The position numbers and the translations under genes are program-made. This document shows positions 18,759 through 25,754 of a DNA stretch of 64,000 nucleotides, piece after piece. The stretch comes from Glycomyces sambucus. GTDB lineage: Bacteria; Actinomycetota; Actinomycetes; Mycobacteriales; Micromonosporaceae. The DNA lies in NCBI RefSeq assembly GCF_900102815.1, contig NZ_FNGF01000006.1, positions 248,001 to 312,000 on the forward strand, written 5' to 3'. The first letter of the stretch is position 1. Every line of letters begins with the position of its first letter. The notes below the pieces were generated by a model. That model had not been told where the DNA came from. It saw only the letters and a list, made by a program, of their open reading frames with translations, and made no database searches.

Positions 18759-19580
18759 TCAGGGCCGGTTCCGGCGTGCTCCCGCGGCCTCGGCGAGGAG
18801 CCGCAGCGCCTCGGGGAGGTCGTCGCGGAGGTAGCGGCGCACGAGGCGGCGGGGCTCCGAGCACATCCGGAACAGCCATTCGGTGCCGGTGCGCCGCATC
18901 CACTTCGGGGCGCGGCGGCGGTATCCGGCGATGAAGTCGATGCTCGCGCCGCAGCCGAGGAGCCACGCCCTGGGGGCCGCGGTGCGCAGGCGCACGCACA
19001 CGTGCTCCTGCTTCGGGAACCCCAGGCCGACGTAGACCAGGTCGGGGGCGGCGGCCTGGACGCGCTCGACCAGCGCGCGCCACTGCGACTCGTCCGTGTC
19101 GAAGCCCATCGGGGGGCACCAGGCGCCGACCACCTTCAGGCCCGGGTAGCGGGCTTCGAGGATCTCGGCGGCGCGCTCGGTGGGGCGCGCGGCGCCATCG
19201 GGCGTGCCGCCCAGGAGCGCGATGCGCAGGCCCCGTTCGGAGGCCGCGGCCGACAGGCTCCACACCAGGTCGGAGCCGGCGACCCGGGCGGGCAGCGGCG
19301 TGCCCGCGAGCCGGGCCGCCCACACCAGCGGCGCCCCGTCGGCGGTGACGAGGTCGGCGGCGTCGACGACCGCGCGCAGTTCGGGGCGGCGGCGCGCGGC
19401 GGCGACGATGTCCACGTTCGGGGTGACGATCCGCCCCCCGCGGCCGGCCTCGATCGACGCGAGCACGCGCGCAACCGCCTCGGCCTCCGTGACGGGGTCG
19501 ATGCCGATGCCGCCCAAGCGGACTCGTGGGGAAGGTCTGCCGCTCGCGCCTCCGGCGCGCGCAGGGCCCAAGCGCTCCAT
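18759..19580 (-). CDS. WecG/TagA/CpsF family glycosyltransferase (GT26)
   Basis: 273 residues. The family signatures are present: GGIGIDPVTEAEAV, IVTPNVDIVAAAR, the catalytic region LVTADGAPLVWAARL, LRIALLGGTPD, PDLVYVGLGFPKQE, and the CGASIDFIAGYRRRAPKWMRRTGTEWLFR tail that mediates membrane contact. GT26 enzymes add the second sugar to polyprenyl-diphosphate-linked saccharides. In this locus it would act just after the priming transferase. Start ATG at 19580; a -10-like TAGCGT lies eight bases upstream, so the message may be nearly leaderless. It points against the operons on both sides. Confidence 0.88.
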   Translation of the reverse strand: MERLGPARAGGASGRPSPRVRLGGIGIDPVTEAEAVARVLASIEAGRGGRIVTPNVDIVAAARRRPELRAVVDAADLVTADGAPLVWAARLAGTPLPARVAGSDLVWSLSAAASERGLRIALLGGTPDGAARPTERAAEILEARYPGLKVVGAWCPPMGFDTDESQWRALVERVQAAAPDLVYVGLGFPKQEHVCVRLRTAAPRAWLLGCGASIDFIAGYRRRAPKWMRRTGTEWLFRMCSEPRRLVRRYLRDDLPEALRLLAEAAGARRNRP

Positions 19581-19691: not shown

Positions 19692-20726
19692 GTGAGCGAG
19701 GGTTCAGTGAGCTGGAGAACGGCCGAGCAGTCCGAGCAGTCCGAGAACCGCGTCAAGGTGGTCTTCATCGGGGGCCTGGGCCGCTCCGGCACCACGCTCC
19801 TGGAGCGCCTGCTGGGGCAGCTGCCCGGGGTCGTCCCGCTCGGGGAGATCACCCACCTGTGGGAGCGGGACCTGGTCGGCAACGAGATGTGCGCGTGCGG
19901 CGCGACCTTCTCGCACTGCGAGTTCTGGCAGCGCATCGGCTCGCGCGCGTTCGGGTCCTGGGAGGACGTGGACGTCGAGCGGCTGAACGCCCTGAAGCAC
20001 ACCGTCGACCGCACCCGGCACATCCCGGCGCTCGCCGCGAAGAAGCTCGCGCCCGCGCAGCACCAGCTCGTCACCGAGTACGCCGAGTACTTCGAGAAGA
20101 TCTACGCCGCCGCCGCGAAGGACACGCGGGCGCAGGTCGTGGTCGACTCCTCGAAGCACGCGTCACTCGCGTACTGCCTGCGCTGGTCCCCGAAGATCGA
20201 TCTGCGGGTCATGCACGTCGTGCGCGACTCGCGCGGCGTCGCCTACTCGTGGACGAAGCAGGTGCGCCGTCCCGAGTCGCCCACCGGCGACCAGATGACC
20301 CGCTACTCCCCCGCGAAGGCCGCGATGCTGTGGAACGCGCAGAACGCCGCGTTCAGCCTCCTGGCCCGCCGCGGGGTCCCGGTGCGGCGGGTCCGGTACG
20401 AGCGGATCATCCAGCGCCCCAGGCGGGTCATCGCCTCGCTCGCGCGGTTCTGCGGGCTCGACCTGGTCGAGTCGGACCTGAACTACATCGGCGACGGCTG
20501 GGCCGACCTGGGCCCGAGCCACTCGGCGGCGGGCAACCCGATGCGGTTCACCGTCGGGCGCATCCCGATCTTCCCCGACGAGGCGTGGACCGAGGACCTC
20601 TCGGACGGCACCCGCAGGATGGTCTCGACCTTGACGCGGCCCCTCCTGGGGAGGTATGGGTACCTGAGCGAGGACGATGCGCCGCTGGAGGATCCCGCAC
20701 GCGAAGAGGTGAGCGCACGTGACTGA
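19692..20726 (+). CDS. Second sulfotransferase
   Basis: 344 residues. 5'-phosphosulfate loop GGLGRSGTTLLERLLG from residue 27; VVVDSSKHASLAYCL and the 3'-phosphate segment LRVMHVVRDSRGVAYSW follow. This pattern (DSSK, RDSRG) is that of the Sulfotransfer_3/tyrosyl-protein-sulfotransferase-like group and differs from the enzyme at 15.6 kb, so the two are not recent duplicates. A CACGATFSHCEFW cysteine cluster lies near 60-70. Start GTG at 19692 after GGGGAG; the first residues contain a small 9-base tandem repeat coding EQSEQSE. The next gene overlaps by eight bases. Confidence 0.85.
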   Translation: MSEGSVSWRTAEQSEQSENRVKVVFIGGLGRSGTTLLERLLGQLPGVVPLGEITHLWERDLVGNEMCACGATFSHCEFWQRIGSRAFGSWEDVDVERLNALKHTVDRTRHIPALAAKKLAPAQHQLVTEYAEYFEKIYAAAAKDTRAQVVVDSSKHASLAYCLRWSPKIDLRVMHVVRDSRGVAYSWTKQVRRPESPTGDQMTRYSPAKAAMLWNAQNAAFSLLARRGVPVRRVRYERIIQRPRRVIASLARFCGLDLVESDLNYIGDGWADLGPSHSAAGNPMRFTVGRIPIFPDEAWTEDLSDGTRRMVSTLTRPLLGRYGYLSEDDAPLEDPAREEVSARD

Positions 20727-21648
20727 CTGGCCTTCCGTCGGGGTCGTGATCCCGACGCACGACCGCCCGCAGCAGATGCGGGCCGCCCTGCGGTCGGTGC
20801 TGACCCAGTTCTACCCCGGCGCGATCGAGGTCGTCGTGGTCTTCGACCGGGCCAAGCCCGACCCGGGCCTGGAGGCGGAGCTCAACGGCGGGCCCGCCGC
20901 GACCGAGGGGCGCCCGGTGCGGGTGGTCCGCAACGAGCGCACCCCGGGCCTGGCGGGGGCCCGCAACACCGGGATCGCCGCGGTCGAGACCGACCTGGTC
21001 GCGTTCCTCGACGACGACGACGAATGGCTGCCCGGGAAGCTCGCCGCGCAGGTCGCGGCCCTCGGCACCGAGGCCGAGCTGTGCACCACCGCGATCGAGG
21101 TCGACTACCGCGGCAAGCGGAACGCGCGGCTCGCGCTCAAGTCGACCGTGCGCCACGTGGACCTGCTGCGGTCGCGGATGATGATGCTCCACTCCTCGAC
21201 GTTCCTGTTCCGCCGCTCGGCGCTCCTGGGCGGGCTCGGGCTCGTCGCGGAGGACGCCCCGGGCTCGCAGAACGAGGACTGGGACATGCTCCTGCGGGCG
21301 TCCCGGCGCCGGCCGATCGCGCACGTGGACACGCCGTACGCGCTCGTGAACTGGGCCGGGTCGCACTTCGAGACCCGCTGGGACACCAAGATCTCCTCGT
21401 TGCGGTGGATCCTCGACCGCCACCCCGAGATCCACGGCAGCCCCGAGGGCGCCGCGCGGGTCTACGGGCAGATCGCGTGCTGGCACGCGGCGATCGGCGA
21501 CCGCAAGGAGGCCCTGCGGTGGGCCCTGCGCGCCACGAAGGCGAACCCGGGCGAGCCCCGCGCGGCCGTCGCCGCCGCCGCGGCGGCCGGCATCGTGGGC
21601 GTCCCCGCGGTGATGGCGGCCCTGCACCGCCGCGGCCGCGGCATCTGA
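20719..21648 (+). CDS. Family 2 glycosyltransferase
   Basis: 309 residues of the GT-A fold. Seen: SVGVVIPTHDRPQQMRAALRSVL, RNERTPGLAGARNTGIAAV and the metal-binding FLDDDDEWLPGKLAAQ, with the acceptor-side region NEDWDMLLRASRR. After about 240 the chain becomes helical and Ala-rich (tetratricopeptide-like spacing), possibly a docking tail. Start GTG at 20719 inside the end of the sulfotransferase gene, so the two are coupled. It likely builds the repeat unit of the same polysaccharide. Intergenic sequence to 21814 then carries the regulatory repeats. Confidence 0.85.
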   Translation: MTDWPSVGVVIPTHDRPQQMRAALRSVLTQFYPGAIEVVVVFDRAKPDPGLEAELNGGPAATEGRPVRVVRNERTPGLAGARNTGIAAVETDLVAFLDDDDEWLPGKLAAQVAALGTEAELCTTAIEVDYRGKRNARLALKSTVRHVDLLRSRMMMLHSSTFLFRRSALLGGLGLVAEDAPGSQNEDWDMLLRASRRRPIAHVDTPYALVNWAGSHFETRWDTKISSLRWILDRHPEIHGSPEGAARVYGQIACWHAAIGDRKEALRWALRATKANPGEPRAAVAAAAAAGIVGVPAVMAALHRRGRGI

Positions 21649-21719: not shown

Positions 21720-21764
21720 GTTATTCACTGCTTAGCGGCCGCTTAACCTCCGGCCCAATACGGT
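21720..21764 (+). promoter_or_regulatory. Three 11-bp direct repeats and -10 box before the DUF4956-VTC operon
   Basis: Head-to-tail 11-mers: GTTATTCACTG (21720-21730), CTTAGCGGCCG (21731-21741) and CTTAACCTCCG (21742-21752). A -10-like TACGGT lies at 21759-21764, 17 bases from the start of the last repeat. Three repeats one helical turn apart, abutting the -10, are the usual pattern for an OmpR/PhoB-family activator. The same arrangement recurs at 25194-25226 beside the response regulator gene. Confidence 0.65.
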
Positions 21765-21814
21765 TCCTCCCATGCCGCCCGACCGGGCGGCGCCCCGGCC
21801 CCCGAGGAGGAACC

Positions 21815-22420
21815 GTGAGTCTCGCGCTCGCACTCGCCCTGCCCGTCGACCTGTTCGCGATCACCGTGCTCGCGTGCGCGATCTACTACCGGCGGCACCA
21901 CCGCACCGACCTCGCGCTCGCGTACGTCGCCCTGAACGTCGGGGTCTTCGCGGTCTCGGCGCTCATGCTCTCGCAGCAGGTGAGCCTCGGACTCGCGTTC
22001 GGGCTCTTCGGGGTCCTGTCGATCCTGCGGCTGCGCTCGGACCAGATCTCCCAGCGCGACGTCGGCTACTACTTCACGGCCCTGGCGCTCGGCCTCATCA
22101 ACGGCATCGGGTCCTCGCGGCCGCTGGTGATGATCGGGCTGTCGGTCCTGCTGGTGGTCACCATGTTCGTGGCCGACCACCCGCGCCTGGCGTACCGGTC
22201 ACGCCACCGCATGGTCGTGCTCGACACGGTCCACCGCGACGAGGCGCGCCTGCGGGAGGACCTGGAGCGGCGCCTGGACGCCTCGGTGCGCAAGTTCGAG
22301 GTGGTCGACACCGACTACGTGCGCGAGACGATGACCGTCGACGTGCGCTTCGTGCCGCACGGGTCGCCGTCGCGGCGGGTCCCGGCCGAGCGCACCGTGC
22401 CGCTGGCGAGGACCCGGTGA
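21815..22420 (+). CDS. DUF4956 family membrane protein
   Basis: 201 residues starting GTG 21815 behind GAGGAGG. About five membrane helices span residues 4-120 (PVDLFAITVLACAIYY, YVALNVGVFAVSALML, LGLAFGLFGVLSILRL and two more). A cytoplasmic C-terminal domain of about 75 residues follows, with an ACT-like strand-helix pattern (RMVVLDTVHRDEARLREDLERRL, then VDTDYVRETMTVDVRF). DUF4956 proteins are regularly encoded next to VTC-domain proteins, as here, and are thought to work with them at the membrane; the function is not established. It overlaps the VTC gene by four bases. Confidence 0.88.
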   Translation: MSLALALALPVDLFAITVLACAIYYRRHHRTDLALAYVALNVGVFAVSALMLSQQVSLGLAFGLFGVLSILRLRSDQISQRDVGYYFTALALGLINGIGSSRPLVMIGLSVLLVVTMFVADHPRLAYRSRHRMVVLDTVHRDEARLREDLERRLDASVRKFEVVDTDYVRETMTVDVRFVPHGSPSRRVPAERTVPLARTR

Positions 22421-23172
22421 GCGGCCTCGGCGCGTTCGGCGCCATGGGGCTCGACGAGGTGGTCGCCGCCGCGGACCTCCAGACGCGCGTCGACACGAAG
22501 TACCTGCTGACGCCCGAGCGGTACCGGTGGTTCCAGGACCGCCTGGCGGACACCGGCGAGTGGTCGTGCCTCGACATCGGCGGGCGGCGCCGGTTCGCGT
22601 ACGAGTCGGTGTACTTCGACACCCCGGACCTCTTGACGTACCGGCAGCACCGGCAGGGCCGGCGGCGGCGCTTCAAGGTCCGCACCCGGCTCTACGCGGA
22701 CTCGGGCGACTGCGCGTTCGAGGTGAAGGTGAAGGGCGCCAGGCAGGACACGGTCAAGGAGCGCCTGCCGTACGCCGCGGCCGACGCCGCCCGGATCACC
22801 CCCGAGGCCGCCGCACACCTGGCGCGGGCGCTGCGGGAGGCGTACGGGATGGGCGTCCCGCCGGGCCTGGAGCCGCGGCTGCGCACCGACTACCGACGGC
22901 ATACGCTCGTGAACCCGGCTGCGGGCGTGCGCATCACGTGCGACGAGGACCTGCGGTGCGTCACCGCCTCCGGCACGGTGGCCGCGCGGCCGCGGTGCCT
23001 CGTGGAGGTCAAGGCGGCCCGGCCGGGCGGCTCGGCAGACCGTCTCCTGTGGTCGATGGGGGCGCGGCCGGTGGCGGTCTCGAAGTACTGCCTCGCGGTG
23101 GCGGTGCTCGCGCCCGGGATGCACGGGAACCCGTGGGCGCGGGCGCTCAACGAGTGCTTCCCGGGACGGTGA
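22417..23172 (+). CDS. VTC-domain protein (polyphosphate polymerase-like)
   Basis: 251 residues of the VTC/CYTH tunnel fold, related to the catalytic domain of yeast Vtc4, which makes polyphosphate from ATP. The tunnel residues expected in the family are visible: TKYLL near 26, YESVYFDTPDLLTYRQHRQG with RRRRFKVRTRLY, the FEVKVKG metal/phosphate strand, RTDYRRHTL, CLVEVKAA with its glutamate, and the late SKYCLAV lysine. The GTG at 22417 shares GTGA with the DUF4956 stop. No CotH-like gene, a frequent partner elsewhere, is present. Polyphosphate synthesis is inferred from the fold, not shown. Confidence 0.85.
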   Translation: MSGLGAFGAMGLDEVVAAADLQTRVDTKYLLTPERYRWFQDRLADTGEWSCLDIGGRRRFAYESVYFDTPDLLTYRQHRQGRRRRFKVRTRLYADSGDCAFEVKVKGARQDTVKERLPYAAADAARITPEAAAHLARALREAYGMGVPPGLEPRLRTDYRRHTLVNPAAGVRITCDEDLRCVTASGTVAARPRCLVEVKAARPGGSADRLLWSMGARPVAVSKYCLAVAVLAPGMHGNPWARALNECFPGR

Positions 23173-23194
23173 GCGGTGCGGTTTCGGTTGCGGC

Positions 23195-24454
23195 TCAGCC
23201 GAGTTCGAGCCTGATGAGCGCGCCCCTGCCGCCCGGGCCCTGGCCGAACACGAGCTGGCCGCCCGAGGCGGCGGCGGCGCGCCCGGCGATGTCGAGGCCC
23301 AGGCCCGTGGAGCCGCCTTCGGAGCGGCCGCGCTGGAACACCCCGAGGTTGGGGAGCCCCGGCCCTTCGTCCGCGACGTCCACTGTGGCACCCGACTCGT
23401 AGCGGGGCACGAGGCGGACCTCGAACGCGGTCCCGTCCGGGGTGTGCGCGAAGACGTTGGCGAGCAGCGAGTCCATGGCGGCGGCGAGGTCGGCGGCCGA
23501 CAGCGACACCGGCAGCGGCCCCGGCGCGAGCCGGACCCGGCACTCGCGGGCGGTGTCCTCCGCCAGCGCCGACCAGAACTCGACCCGCTCGGCCACGACG
23601 GCGGCGGCGTCGCAGGTCCCGGCCTGGGCCGGGTTGCGGGCGTCGCGGATCGCCTCGTTCACAGCCCGCTCCACATCGGCCACGGCCCGCTCCACGGGTT
23701 CGCGCTGCGCGTGGTCCCCCAGGGCCTCGGTCTCGAGTCTGAGGACGGTGAGCGGGGTCCGGAGCCGGTGCGAGAGGTCGGCGACCCGCTCGCGCTCGGC
23801 CTCCAGGAGCTCCCGGATGCGGTCGGCGAGGGTGTTCAGCGCGGTGCCGACGTTCCGCAGCTCCGCCGGGCCCGCGGCGTCGGCGCGGGCGTCGAGGTCG
23901 CCTCTGGCGAGGCGGTGGGACACGGCCGCGAGGTCGTGCAGCGGCACCAGGATCACCTGCGCGAGCCGCCACGCCAGCAGCAGCCCGAACCCCAAGAGCA
24001 GCAGGGCGATCGCGCCGAGGAGCAGCCACGAGCGGGCGACGCCGGCGGTGAGCTGGTCGTCGGAGACGTAGACGCGGATGACCGCGGCCCGCCCGTCGAC
24101 GTTCACGTTAAACAGGACCTCGCGGCCCCCGTCGGCCTCGGCGGTGATCGAGGACCCGGCCGCGGCGAGTTCGACCGCGTTCGAGCGCGGCGCGTCGACG
24201 CCGATGACCGACCCGTCGGGCCAGAACACCGTGACCGGGTACAGCCCGGCGACGTTGTAGCTCTCCACGGCCGCCTGCGTCGCGGCCCGGTCGCCGGAGC
24301 TGACCGTGCTCACGAGGGTCTGGCCCTCCTGCTGCGCGCTGTCGACCGCGTGCTGGGCCGCGCTGTTGCGCAGCAGGATCGCCATGGGGATCGAGAACGC
24401 CAGGAGGATGAGGCTCGCGGTGGCGGCCACGAGCAGCGTCAGCCGGGCCCTCAT
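23195..24454 (-). CDS. Two-component sensor histidine kinase
   Basis: 419 residues. A first membrane helix (about 5-28), an extracellular sensor loop (about 30-140, without cysteines), a second helix (about 142-163), HAMP (about 164-218), and a HisKA domain with H-box DLSHRLRTPLT, phospho-acceptor His229. The ATPase domain has the N-box LLANVFAHTPDG, G1 DEGPGLP and G2 STGLGLDIA. The ATG at 24454 overlaps the regulator stop (ATGA), so both are one transcript from the regulator side. It converges on the VTC gene with only 22 bases between and no clear terminator. The signal sensed is unknown. Confidence 0.92.
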   Translation of the reverse strand: MRARLTLLVAATASLILLAFSIPMAILLRNSAAQHAVDSAQQEGQTLVSTVSSGDRAATQAAVESYNVAGLYPVTVFWPDGSVIGVDAPRSNAVELAAAGSSITAEADGGREVLFNVNVDGRAAVIRVYVSDDQLTAGVARSWLLLGAIALLLLGFGLLLAWRLAQVILVPLHDLAAVSHRLARGDLDARADAAGPAELRNVGTALNTLADRIRELLEAERERVADLSHRLRTPLTVLRLETEALGDHAQREPVERAVADVERAVNEAIRDARNPAQAGTCDAAAVVAERVEFWSALAEDTARECRVRLAPGPLPVSLSAADLAAAMDSLLANVFAHTPDGTAFEVRLVPRYESGATVDVADEGPGLPNLGVFQRGRSEGGSTGLGLDIAGRAAAASGGQLVFGQGPGGRGALIRLELG

Positions 24455-25143
24455 GCCGCGCCGCCCGCGGGGTCGACGAGCTTGACGCCCACGCCGCGCA
24501 CGGTGTGCAGGAACCGCGGCGCCTGCGCGGTCTCGCCGAGCTTGCGCCGCAGCCACGCCAGGTGCACGTCGACGGTCTTGTCCGCGCCGCCGAACGGCAG
24601 GTCCCACACGTCGGTGAGGAGCTGGCGCTTGGCGACCACCTCGCCGGCGCGGGCCGCGAGGTAGTGCAGCAGGTCGAACTCCTTGGGGCTCAGTTCCAGC
24701 GGCTTCCCGTCGAGGTGCGCGGCGCGTCCGCGCGGGTCGATGCGCAAGGGCCCCACGGTGACCGTGGGGTCGGCTGCTGGGCCGCCGACGCGGCGCAGCA
24801 CGGCCTGGATGCGCGCGTCGAGCTGCTTGGCGGTGAAGGGCTTGACCACGTAGTCGTCGGCGCCCGAGCCGAGGACGCGCACGATCTCGTCCTCGTCGTC
24901 GCGGGCGGTCGCCACGATCACCGGCACGTCGGAGACGCCGCGGAGCATCCGCAGCATCTGCGCGCCGTCGAGGTCGGGCAGCCCGAGGTCAAGCACGACC
25001 AGGTCGGGGCGGTGGTCGATCGCGGCGCGCAGGCCCGTCATCGCGTCGGGCGCGGAGGCGACCTGGTGGCGCAGGTCCCGCAGCGAGCGCATGAGCGTCG
25101 TGCGGACCCGCTCGTCGTCCTCGATCAGGAGCAGTTGGGCCAT
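24451..25143 (-). CDS. OmpR/PhoB-family response regulator
   Basis: 230 residues from ATG 25143. Receiver domain (1-115) with acidic pocket IEDDE, phospho-acceptor Asp52 in VVLDLGLPDLDG, Thr79 in VIVATARDD and Lys101 in VVKPFT. The winged-helix DNA-binding domain (about 130-225) has ELSPKEFDLLHYLAARAGEVVAKRQLL and VDVHLAWLRRKLGE. A longer in-frame start exists at 25182; the shorter one begins exactly where the receiver should. The three 11-bp repeats in its upstream gap suit the tandem binding of OmpR-family dimers, so autoregulation is likely. Confidence 0.93.
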   Translation of the reverse strand: MAQLLLIEDDERVRTTLMRSLRDLRHQVASAPDAMTGLRAAIDHRPDLVVLDLGLPDLDGAQMLRMLRGVSDVPVIVATARDDEDEIVRVLGSGADDYVVKPFTAKQLDARIQAVLRRVGGPAADPTVTVGPLRIDPRGRAAHLDGKPLELSPKEFDLLHYLAARAGEVVAKRQLLTDVWDLPFGGADKTVDVHLAWLRRKLGETAQAPRFLHTVRGVGVKLVDPAGGAA

Positions 25144-25193
25144 GGCCGGAAGCCTATGCGGAAGAACGCGAACCGGCCACACCCTGACCAGGG

Positions 25194-25238
25194 CTTAGAC
25201 CCGTCTTATCGCGGCCTTAACCATCGGGGCCGCATCCT
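25194..25238 (+). promoter_or_regulatory. Three 11-bp direct repeats and -10 box before the Asp-rich exported protein
   Basis: Head-to-tail 11-mers: CTTAGACCCGT (25194-25204), CTTATCGCGGC (25205-25215) and CTTAACCATCG (25216-25226). CATCCT at 25233-25238 sits 17 bases from the start of the last repeat, exactly as TACGGT does at 21759. It keeps the key second A and sixth T of a -10. A start seven bases later would coincide with the ATG at 25245, predicting a leaderless message. The same gap serves the divergent regulator gene. Confidence 0.65.
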
Positions 25239-25244
25239 GGGGCC

Positions 25245-25754
25245 ATGCAGAGGAAATGGGCGGTGGCCGGGTGGGTGACGTTCGCGGCGGTCGCCGTGGC
25301 GGCGGGGATCGGCGCGGTGGCGCTGGCGCAGGGCGGGAGCCTCGCCGGGCCCGAGCAGCCGATGTCCGAGGACGACGTGCTGGAGCAGCTCGCGGACGCG
25401 GACCACGCGGGGACCACCGACGAGCCGTCCGCGAGCGGGACGCCGACGGGCGCTGAGACCACGGCGGCCTCCGAGGCGCCGCCGACCGAAGCCGGGGGCC
25501 ATGTGCTCGGCGGCGACGGCGGCACGTTCATGGCGGTGTGCGAGGGCGACGAGGTCCGCATCTCGTGGTGGACGCCAGCGCAGGGCTGGAACGCCGCCGC
25601 CGTCGACCAGGGGCCCGGCCCGCAGGCGTCGGTCACGTTCACCGCCGCGGGCGATGACGACGACGATGACGACGGCTTCCACTACATCGCCACCTGCACG
25701 GCCGGCGTGCCCGCCGCCGCGCTCCAGTCCGGCGACGACGACAACGACGACTGA
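25245..25754 (+). CDS. Exported or membrane-anchored acidic protein with an Asp7 run
   Basis: 169 residues; I know no named family for it. An N-terminal hydrophobic segment (about 6-29) is either a signal peptide or an anchor. A Thr/Ser/Glu/Ala linker (about 40-85) follows, then a small beta-rich domain with FMAVCEGDEVRISWWTPAQGW and HYIATC. Cys99 and Cys151 could form a disulfide. Between these strands lies a run of seven aspartates (137-143), and the chain ends DDDNDD, both plausible divalent-cation sites. Calculated charge is strongly negative. Its position behind the repeated regulatory sites, divergent from the regulator, marks it as a likely output of that system. Confidence 0.75.
   Translation: MQRKWAVAGWVTFAAVAVAAGIGAVALAQGGSLAGPEQPMSEDDVLEQLADADHAGTTDEPSASGTPTGAETTAASEAPPTEAGGHVLGGDGGTFMAVCEGDEVRISWWTPAQGWNAAAVDQGPGPQASVTFTAAGDDDDDDDGFHYIATCTAGVPAAALQSGDDDNDD

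Follow-up and report, generated by a model that had tools for sequence, protein, structure and literature searches.

Head-to-tail 11-bp repeat arrays as probable operators of an OmpR/PhoB-type two-component system in Glycomyces sambucus and related actinobacteria

Analysis of a 64,000-nucleotide stretch of the Glycomyces sambucus genome (contig NZ_FNGF01000006.1, positions 248,001 to 312,000; the window) revealed two arrays of three 11-bp repeats that flank the genes for a sensor histidine kinase and a response regulator. We consider it highly likely that the response regulator encoded between these arrays uses them as operators, and that it would activate two promoters through this head-to-tail 11-bp geometry. 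Array 1 (21720-21752, + strand) is made of GTTATTCACTG (21720-21730), CTTAGCGGCCG (21731-21741) and CTTAACCTCCG (21742-21752) and precedes the putative -10 hexamer TACGGT (21759-21764, + strand) of an operon formed by a DUF4956 gene (21815-22420, + strand; PF16316, E 7.2e-59) and an overlapping VTC-domain gene (22417-23172, + strand). Array 2 (25194-25226, + strand) is made of CTTAGACCCGT (25194-25204), CTTATCGCGGC (25205-25215) and CTTAACCATCG (25216-25226) and precedes the putative -10 hexamer CATCCT (25233-25238, + strand), which is followed 6 nt further by the start codon of a gene for an Asp-rich membrane-anchored protein (25245-25754, + strand). The regulator gene (24451-25143, - strand), whose product has GGADKTVDVHLAWLRRKL in its recognition-helix region, adjoins the kinase gene (23195-24454, - strand; HAMP, HisKA and HATPase_c domains in Pfam). 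An earlier note on this DNA, made from the sequence alone, had described an OmpR/PhoB-type regulator with 11-bp repeats beside the -10 hexamers of the DUF4956-VTC operon and the Asp-rich gene. Pfam agreed with the regulator type, identifying a receiver domain (PF00072, E 2.5e-24) and a Trans_reg_C domain (PF00486, E 2.9e-24); the coordinates and strand of the six 11-mers were exact, and both hexamers start at a distance of exactly 17 nt, counted from the first base of the last repeat.

CTTA occurred 18 times on both strands of the window, including five copies inside the two arrays, and among the spacings tested (8-15 bp) CTTA pairs were present only at 11 bp (3 pairs). Across the 5.6-Mb genome holding the window (G000), a scan proposed in the earlier note found STTAN7CTTAN7CTTA at these two arrays only, both times on the + strand, and the reversed-pattern control gave no match. 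The number of triples expected per genome from the window's CTTA and GTTA frequencies, with the array copies removed, was 2.9e-5. The notion that the repeats arise by chance or from the composition of a G+C-rich genome draws on the behaviour of loose two-box pairs: BTTAN7BTTA showed no enrichment, with 39 matches in the genome against 73 in the control. This indicated that the array, and not the pair, carries the signal. Two triples flanking a single gene pair, an 11-bp phase kept over 75 loci and the conservation of the arrays in congeners and in a second genus all argue against chance, which we regard as extremely improbable. Two CTTAN7CTTA pairs were seen in the same genome outside the locus, at C12:104986 and C12:380642. 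The first, CTTATGCGGTCCTTA (G000:C12:104986-105000, - strand; locus L311), stands about 60 bp upstream of where a different response-regulator gene starts, and here cross-regulation and chance are both possible. No Rfam element reached the gathering score between positions 19000 and 29000 of the window.

The 11-bp period was recovered at relatives of the regulator. The survey covered 75 loci, namely 12 of the genus, one of a second genus (G014), 11 on named actinobacterial contigs with a regulator relative at 55-72% identity (among them Streptosporangium amethystogenes, Geodermatophilus siccatus, Actinacidiphila soli and Amycolatopsis) and 51 chosen, with large genera thinned, among the matches listed at E<=1e-70. 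A kinase match lay beside the regulator in 72 loci, an Asp-rich protein match was found in 40, and DUF4956 and VTC matches were found in 14. Within 220 bp toward the gene divergent from the regulator, TTA pairs numbered 68 at 11 bp, 25 at 22 bp and 2 at 33 bp; the remaining spacings between 4 and 40 bp averaged 0.47 pairs and never exceeded 2. TTA ranked first of the 64 trinucleotides for 11-bp pairing, also when the 12 congeners were removed (44 pairs); in these 63 loci the 44 pairs were distributed over 33 loci, compared with a mean of 0.17 and a maximum of 2 in dinucleotide shuffles. Defining an array as two or more [CGT]TTA at 11 bp, with at least one C, within 420 bp, we found one before the divergent gene in 46 loci (34 of the 63 non-congeners), 22 of them with three or more boxes; the number of strict boxes per array ranged from two to four. 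The consensus of 36 divergent-gene arrays, comprising that of the window and 35 from outside the genus, was (C/G)TTA(G/A)C and not a GTTCACC-type PHO box, in line with the earlier statement that the repeats depart from the PhoP box. In the boxes of the window, the final two positions of this consensus can also be T or A.

Candidate -10 hexamers were counted per offset, from 6 to 30 nt, starting at the first base of the last box. TANNNT was found at offset 17 in 13/13 DUF4956 promoters with a strict array (11 congeneric, 2 outside the genus) and at none of the other offsets; in locus L256 (genome G413), where the DUF4956 promoter has two boxes 22 bp apart, TAGCGT stood at offset 17. For 47 divergent-gene arrays, (C/T/G)ANNNT was present at offset 17 in 24 and at offset 18 in 5, with at most 4 at any other offset; without the congeners, the counts at 17 and 18 were 12 and 5 of 35 arrays. 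A start codon of the divergent gene was found for 43 of the 47 arrays, and in 29 of these cases it follows the last box at 29-31 nt. Ten of the other 14 lay at 39-41 or 50-52 nt, an excess of 11 or 22 nt that would fit one or two intervening worn boxes. Start-codon distances were 7 or 8 modulo 11 in 35/42 arrays, a tally from which L228 was dropped because its 22-nt distance probably reflects a misassigned start codon. The distance between the regulator start and the first box was variable, from 17 to 287 nt. A largely constant distance to the divergent gene and a variable one to the regulator indicate that the boxes serve the divergent gene. With about six bases between the -10 hexamer and the start codon, the divergent-gene mRNAs are probably leaderless.

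The same measurements spoke against autoactivation of the regulator, which the earlier note had thought probable. An 11-bp pair within 220 bp was found toward the divergent gene in 45 of the 75 loci and toward the regulator in only three, and the variable distance on the regulator side stands against the 29-31 nt on the other. Upstream of the regulator itself (25144-25160), a CATAGG-like -10 hexamer was seen about 9 nt before its ATG, and TAGCGT- or TAACGT-like hexamers were noticed by eye near the regulator start in relatives; the regulator's own promoter looks leaderless.

The arrays overlap the -35 region, a position that would also suit repressor sites at which the bound regulator blocks the promoters. 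The constant 17-nt spacing to the -10 hexamer and the lack of a -35 hexamer by eye correspond instead to an activator-type layout, and the occurrence of two to four strict boxes also counts against a repressor. Activators that replace the -35 element, such as PhoB on the pho box, have this kind of layout. Judged only from where the sites stand, activation would be favoured over repression, and we hold the repressor explanation to be unlikely.

Within the genus, the arrays followed the regulator. Protein searches found the regulator in 12 of 22 congeneric genomes (87-100% identity), the next of the matches listed having 46% identity or less. YTTAN7CTTAN7CTTA was present in exactly the same 12 genomes and in none of the other 10 (Fisher p 1.5e-6), and the reversed control matched in 4/22. 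Ten genomes had two matches, and G000 and G160 had one each; the other array of G000 starts with GTTA and was thus seen only with the STTA pattern. Array and genes are part of one locus, so this co-occurrence shows gain or loss as a unit and does not amount to 22 independent tests. An orthologous DUF4956 gene (79-100%) accompanied the regulator in 11 of the 12 carriers. The exception, G160, lacks an orthologous DUF4956 gene; it has the regulator and the Asp-rich gene, and its only array lies before the latter. The number of arrays therefore equals the number of target promoters in the 12 carriers. Array 1 was found at the same place with three boxes in the 10 other congeners with the operon and in G452, and with four boxes in G014. 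In this second genus (locus L043; regulator 73%, DUF4956 62%), the four-box array before DUF4956 was accompanied by a three-box array before the Asp-rich gene. Both arrays were kept in two congeners, in further congeners and in the second genus, and the conservation check suggested in the earlier note thus gave a positive result.

The locus could also be under the control of another regulator, either an OmpR-type paralogue or a one-component activator, to which the arrays would belong. The genome contains many OmpR-type paralogues, with 51 matches to the regulator, and other actinobacterial sites with 11-bp CTTA arrays have no copy of this regulator close by. Against this stand the joint presence or absence of array and regulator in the 22 congeners, the lack of any further triple in the genome, the adjacency of array and regulator across families and the fact that array presence tracks the type of recognition helix. 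A lysine before [TS]VDVH in the recognition-helix region was found in 46/46 loci with an array. By residue at this place, an array at the divergent gene was present in 46/57 K-type, 0/20 Q-type and 0/6 R-type loci; these counts include eight later relatives outside the 75 loci (L312-L318 and L324), all Q-type, in which no pair was found at the divergent gene (0/8). The 29 array-less loci of the 75 were 11 of type K, 12 of type Q and 6 of type R. On a tree built from the 75 regulators, 8 changes were needed to explain array status, compared with 23.4 in shuffles. The link between helix residue and array resembles the outcome expected of a specificity change, and it is phylogenetically confounded. 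Overall, we find control by another regulator improbable and consider the arrays very probably a docking array of the adjacent regulator. In the Q-type loci L272, L275, L277 and L317, CTTAGG-N5-CTTAAGG-like pairs were seen about 2.1 kb away, behind the kinase gene and on the opposite strand.

The best solved relative of the regulator was PrrA (1ys6, E 5.8e-50), and no NCBIfam cut-off was reached among the best 25 of 96 matches. It scored below the cut-offs of the equivalog models of PhoB (171.4 bits, cut-off 296.2), MtrA (172.3, cut-off 300), CseB (173.1, cut-off 350) and CtrA (129.1, cut-off 350). Relatives at E<=1e-70 occurred in 97/296 genomes of the class, all helix types included.

Several observations weigh against the arrays being operators of the adjacent regulator. 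The congeners are not independent samples. TANNNT was found at offset 17 or 18 in 0/47 divergent-gene arrays, which have only (C/G)ANNNT types there, and the -10 hexamer of the Asp-rich gene must consequently be regarded as weak. By the definition used, the array was absent in 11/57 K-type loci and in 29/75 loci overall (37/83 with the eight extra Q-type loci). The divergent gene was a detectable Asp-rich relative in 40/75 loci (33 of the 46 with an array); in the remaining loci it was either undetected or of another kind. Finally, similar arrays are found elsewhere: STTAN7STTAN7STTA occurred in 71/296 genomes of the class and within 5 kb of the regulator in only nine of them (11 matches, coordinates read by eye), and strict triple CTTA occurred order-wide in 7/101 genomes, two of them at this locus, compared with 8 for the reversed control. 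As these class- and order-wide matches lie mostly away from the regulator, the triple motif alone is not diagnostic.

Many of the other STTA-triple matches were in small genomes that had control matches too, and some were in other families of the order or class. The arrays in L057, L058, L330, L320-L323 and L325-L329 were considered as further targets and rejected, no regulator relative being found there by tblastn. One family of the order (f8) has a conserved 11-bp array of the form CTTAT.GTGAC-CTTA...-CTTA, followed in L058 and L330 by TTTTTCTTA. It was located at L058 5793 (- strand), where it stands before a short-chain dehydrogenase gene, and at L330 3320 (- strand); arrays in G351, G451, G435 and G376 were similar, and those in G443 and G144 (L057 5618) less alike. 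These arrays may belong to another regulator with a similar code. In a second family (f31; G227, G315, G420 and G377), promoters that do not adjoin the regulator share additional CTTA arrays, with a CTTAAAT-type triple before a TTGAC-type promoter in L320 and L323 and four CTTAAA/CTTAAG boxes in L321 and L322.

The Asp-rich protein encoded after array 2 has an N-terminal helix, a linker, a C-terminal beta domain and an acidic tail, and had no Pfam or NCBIfam match. The C-terminal domain was conserved in an alignment of the window protein with six relatives, in which G92, G93, C99, P111, G114, F132, C151, G154 and P156 were invariant; helix, variable linker and C-terminal domain formed the common layout. 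Proteins in the wrong frame (L234, L235, L250, L255 and L256) were left out of this set. AlphaFold2 predicted seven strands for the C-terminal domain, with a block pLDDT of 80-95 and 71.5 for the whole model. A Foldseek search of the PDB returned nothing at E<=0.001 (best 0.26), and we left the fold unnamed.

A further candidate target appeared behind the kinase gene, where 16/75 loci had a two-box array before a gene for a small secreted protein. A PepSY domain above the gathering score was found in 13 of the 14 proteins scanned from these 16 promoters, the exception being L066; L061 (wrong frame) and L265 were outside the 14. Many of the Asp-rich and PepSY proteins have a C-terminal tail rich in Asp or in Asp and His. 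At the 16 PepSY-type promoters the hexamer stood 13 (8 cases), 16 (1) or 24 nt (7) from the last strict box. Worn boxes extend the 11-bp register, and 17 nt past the last of these we found xAxxxT in 15/16 and GAAxxT in 10, which is weaker evidence as these boxes were placed after viewing. In place of an evident PepSY gene, some lineages carry an open reading frame (ORF) for a small secreted protein with Asp/His- or Asp-rich repeats close to where the kinase gene ends (L066 8026-8436, + strand; L068 7999-8511, L069 7996-8514 and L071 7972-8577, all - strand). The L066 protein, the only member of this group scanned, had no Pfam match.

The VTC protein had the VTC domain expected of a VTC polyphosphate polymerase (PF09359, E 9.1e-32) and no meaningful match by sequence in the PDB; we refer to the DUF4956-VTC pair as a putative polyphosphate operon. 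Outside the genus, a DUF4956 operon at the locus with boxes was found in G014 (L043), in G452 (L230, another family) and in G413 (L256). DUF4956-VTC operons at 41-54% identity (12 loci, L044-L055) had no [CGT]TTA triple; in L051 a CTTAG series was seen by eye on the other strand. The divergent gene and often the PepSY gene thus appear to be the usual targets, with DUF4956-VTC in few lineages only; the module seems to be old and to carry alternative cargoes, of which DUF4956-VTC would be one among several. At its edges, the locus of the window is bordered by a glycosyltransferase gene (20719-21648, + strand) and, after the Asp-rich gene, by ATP synthase genes (- strand), all named from sequence.

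Collectively, these observations suggest a mechanism in which the adjacent kinase would phosphorylate the regulator, which would then bind head to tail with one subunit per 11-bp repeat (C/G)TTA(A/G)C-N5. The resulting stack would lie over the -35 region, with the last repeat 17 nt before the -10 hexamer, and may recruit RNA polymerase to two promoters, that of the DUF4956-VTC operon and that of the probably leaderless gene for the Asp-rich extracytoplasmic protein. Members of this regulator family in relatives would use this geometry before the divergent gene and before the PepSY gene. The signal could, as a guess from the acidic targets, be cation stress or cationic stress on the envelope. 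A broader proposal, which we put forward only tentatively and hold to be rather doubtful, is that an unnamed, widespread two-component system of actinobacteria, which has an operator code of its own and a -10 hexamer at +17, runs a small extracytoplasmic polyanion programme. Leaderless acidic-tailed anchored and PepSY proteins and, in few lineages, the DUF4956-VTC polyphosphate operon would buffer cation or cationic-peptide stress sensed by the kinase, and the anchored proteins would feed back on it.

The analysis provides an uncharacterised regulator family, with relatives in about one third of the sampled genomes of the class, with a predicted operator, a promoter geometry and a target list. 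It also connects a defined regulator with an actinobacterial operon of the VTC type, which is putatively concerned with polyphosphate. The K-type loci with arrays and the Q- and R-type loci with none at the divergent gene also form a dataset on shifts in OmpR/PhoB recognition-helix specificity. As far as sequence comparison can tell, the repeats appear to be a real and conserved operator array that belongs to an uncharacterised two-component system of actinobacteria. The recognition sequence appears to be new, and the promoter geometry is unusually clean. A literature search recognised neither the motif nor the module among the matches listed, most subscription papers being outside its reach. 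CrsR of Actinosynnema was ruled out as the same regulator, being described as NarL-type in the accessible text of its report (PMC12623338).

The comparisons with known systems draw on the available parts of the sources cited. OmpR/PhoB regulators bind direct repeats, and PhoP of Mycobacterium tuberculosis does so as a tandem dimer on 7-bp repeats whose spacer is strictly 4 bp, a dimer that can be extended to a trimer or tetramer (PMC4832192); the Streptomyces PhoP box is built of 11-nt units (quoted in PMC6754071). Operators of the PhoB/PhoP type thus resemble the arrays in having an OmpR/PhoB-type regulator, 11-bp direct repeats and room for more than two subunits; they differ in their core, GTTCACC or TCACAGC there and (C/G)TTA(A/G)C here. 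To our knowledge, the two targets in the window are not Pho genes. CtrA, a regulator of the OmpR family in alphaproteobacteria, shares the TTA core and the 11-bp period (TTAA-N7-TTAA), but belongs to another phylum and has other targets, and the arrays of the window have three boxes. CiaR of streptococci (TTTAAG-N5-TTTAAG), compared by motif only, also has the 11-bp period and a TTA core, with a different core sequence. CutR of Streptomyces is of the OmpR type. Similarly to the system described here it is an actinobacterial two-component regulator, but it binds TAWATAAA (PMC12802291). PolS-PolR of Microlunatus phosphovorus is likewise an actinobacterial two-component system, acting on polyphosphate genes through 11-bp direct repeats; PolR differs in recognising GTTCACnnnnnGTTCaC and in targeting ppk, ppgk, pit and pstS, and the term 'vtc' does not occur in the main text of its report (PMC6754071). 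From what these sources describe, PolR is the closest known system by topic, and CtrA and CiaR are the closest by motif shape.

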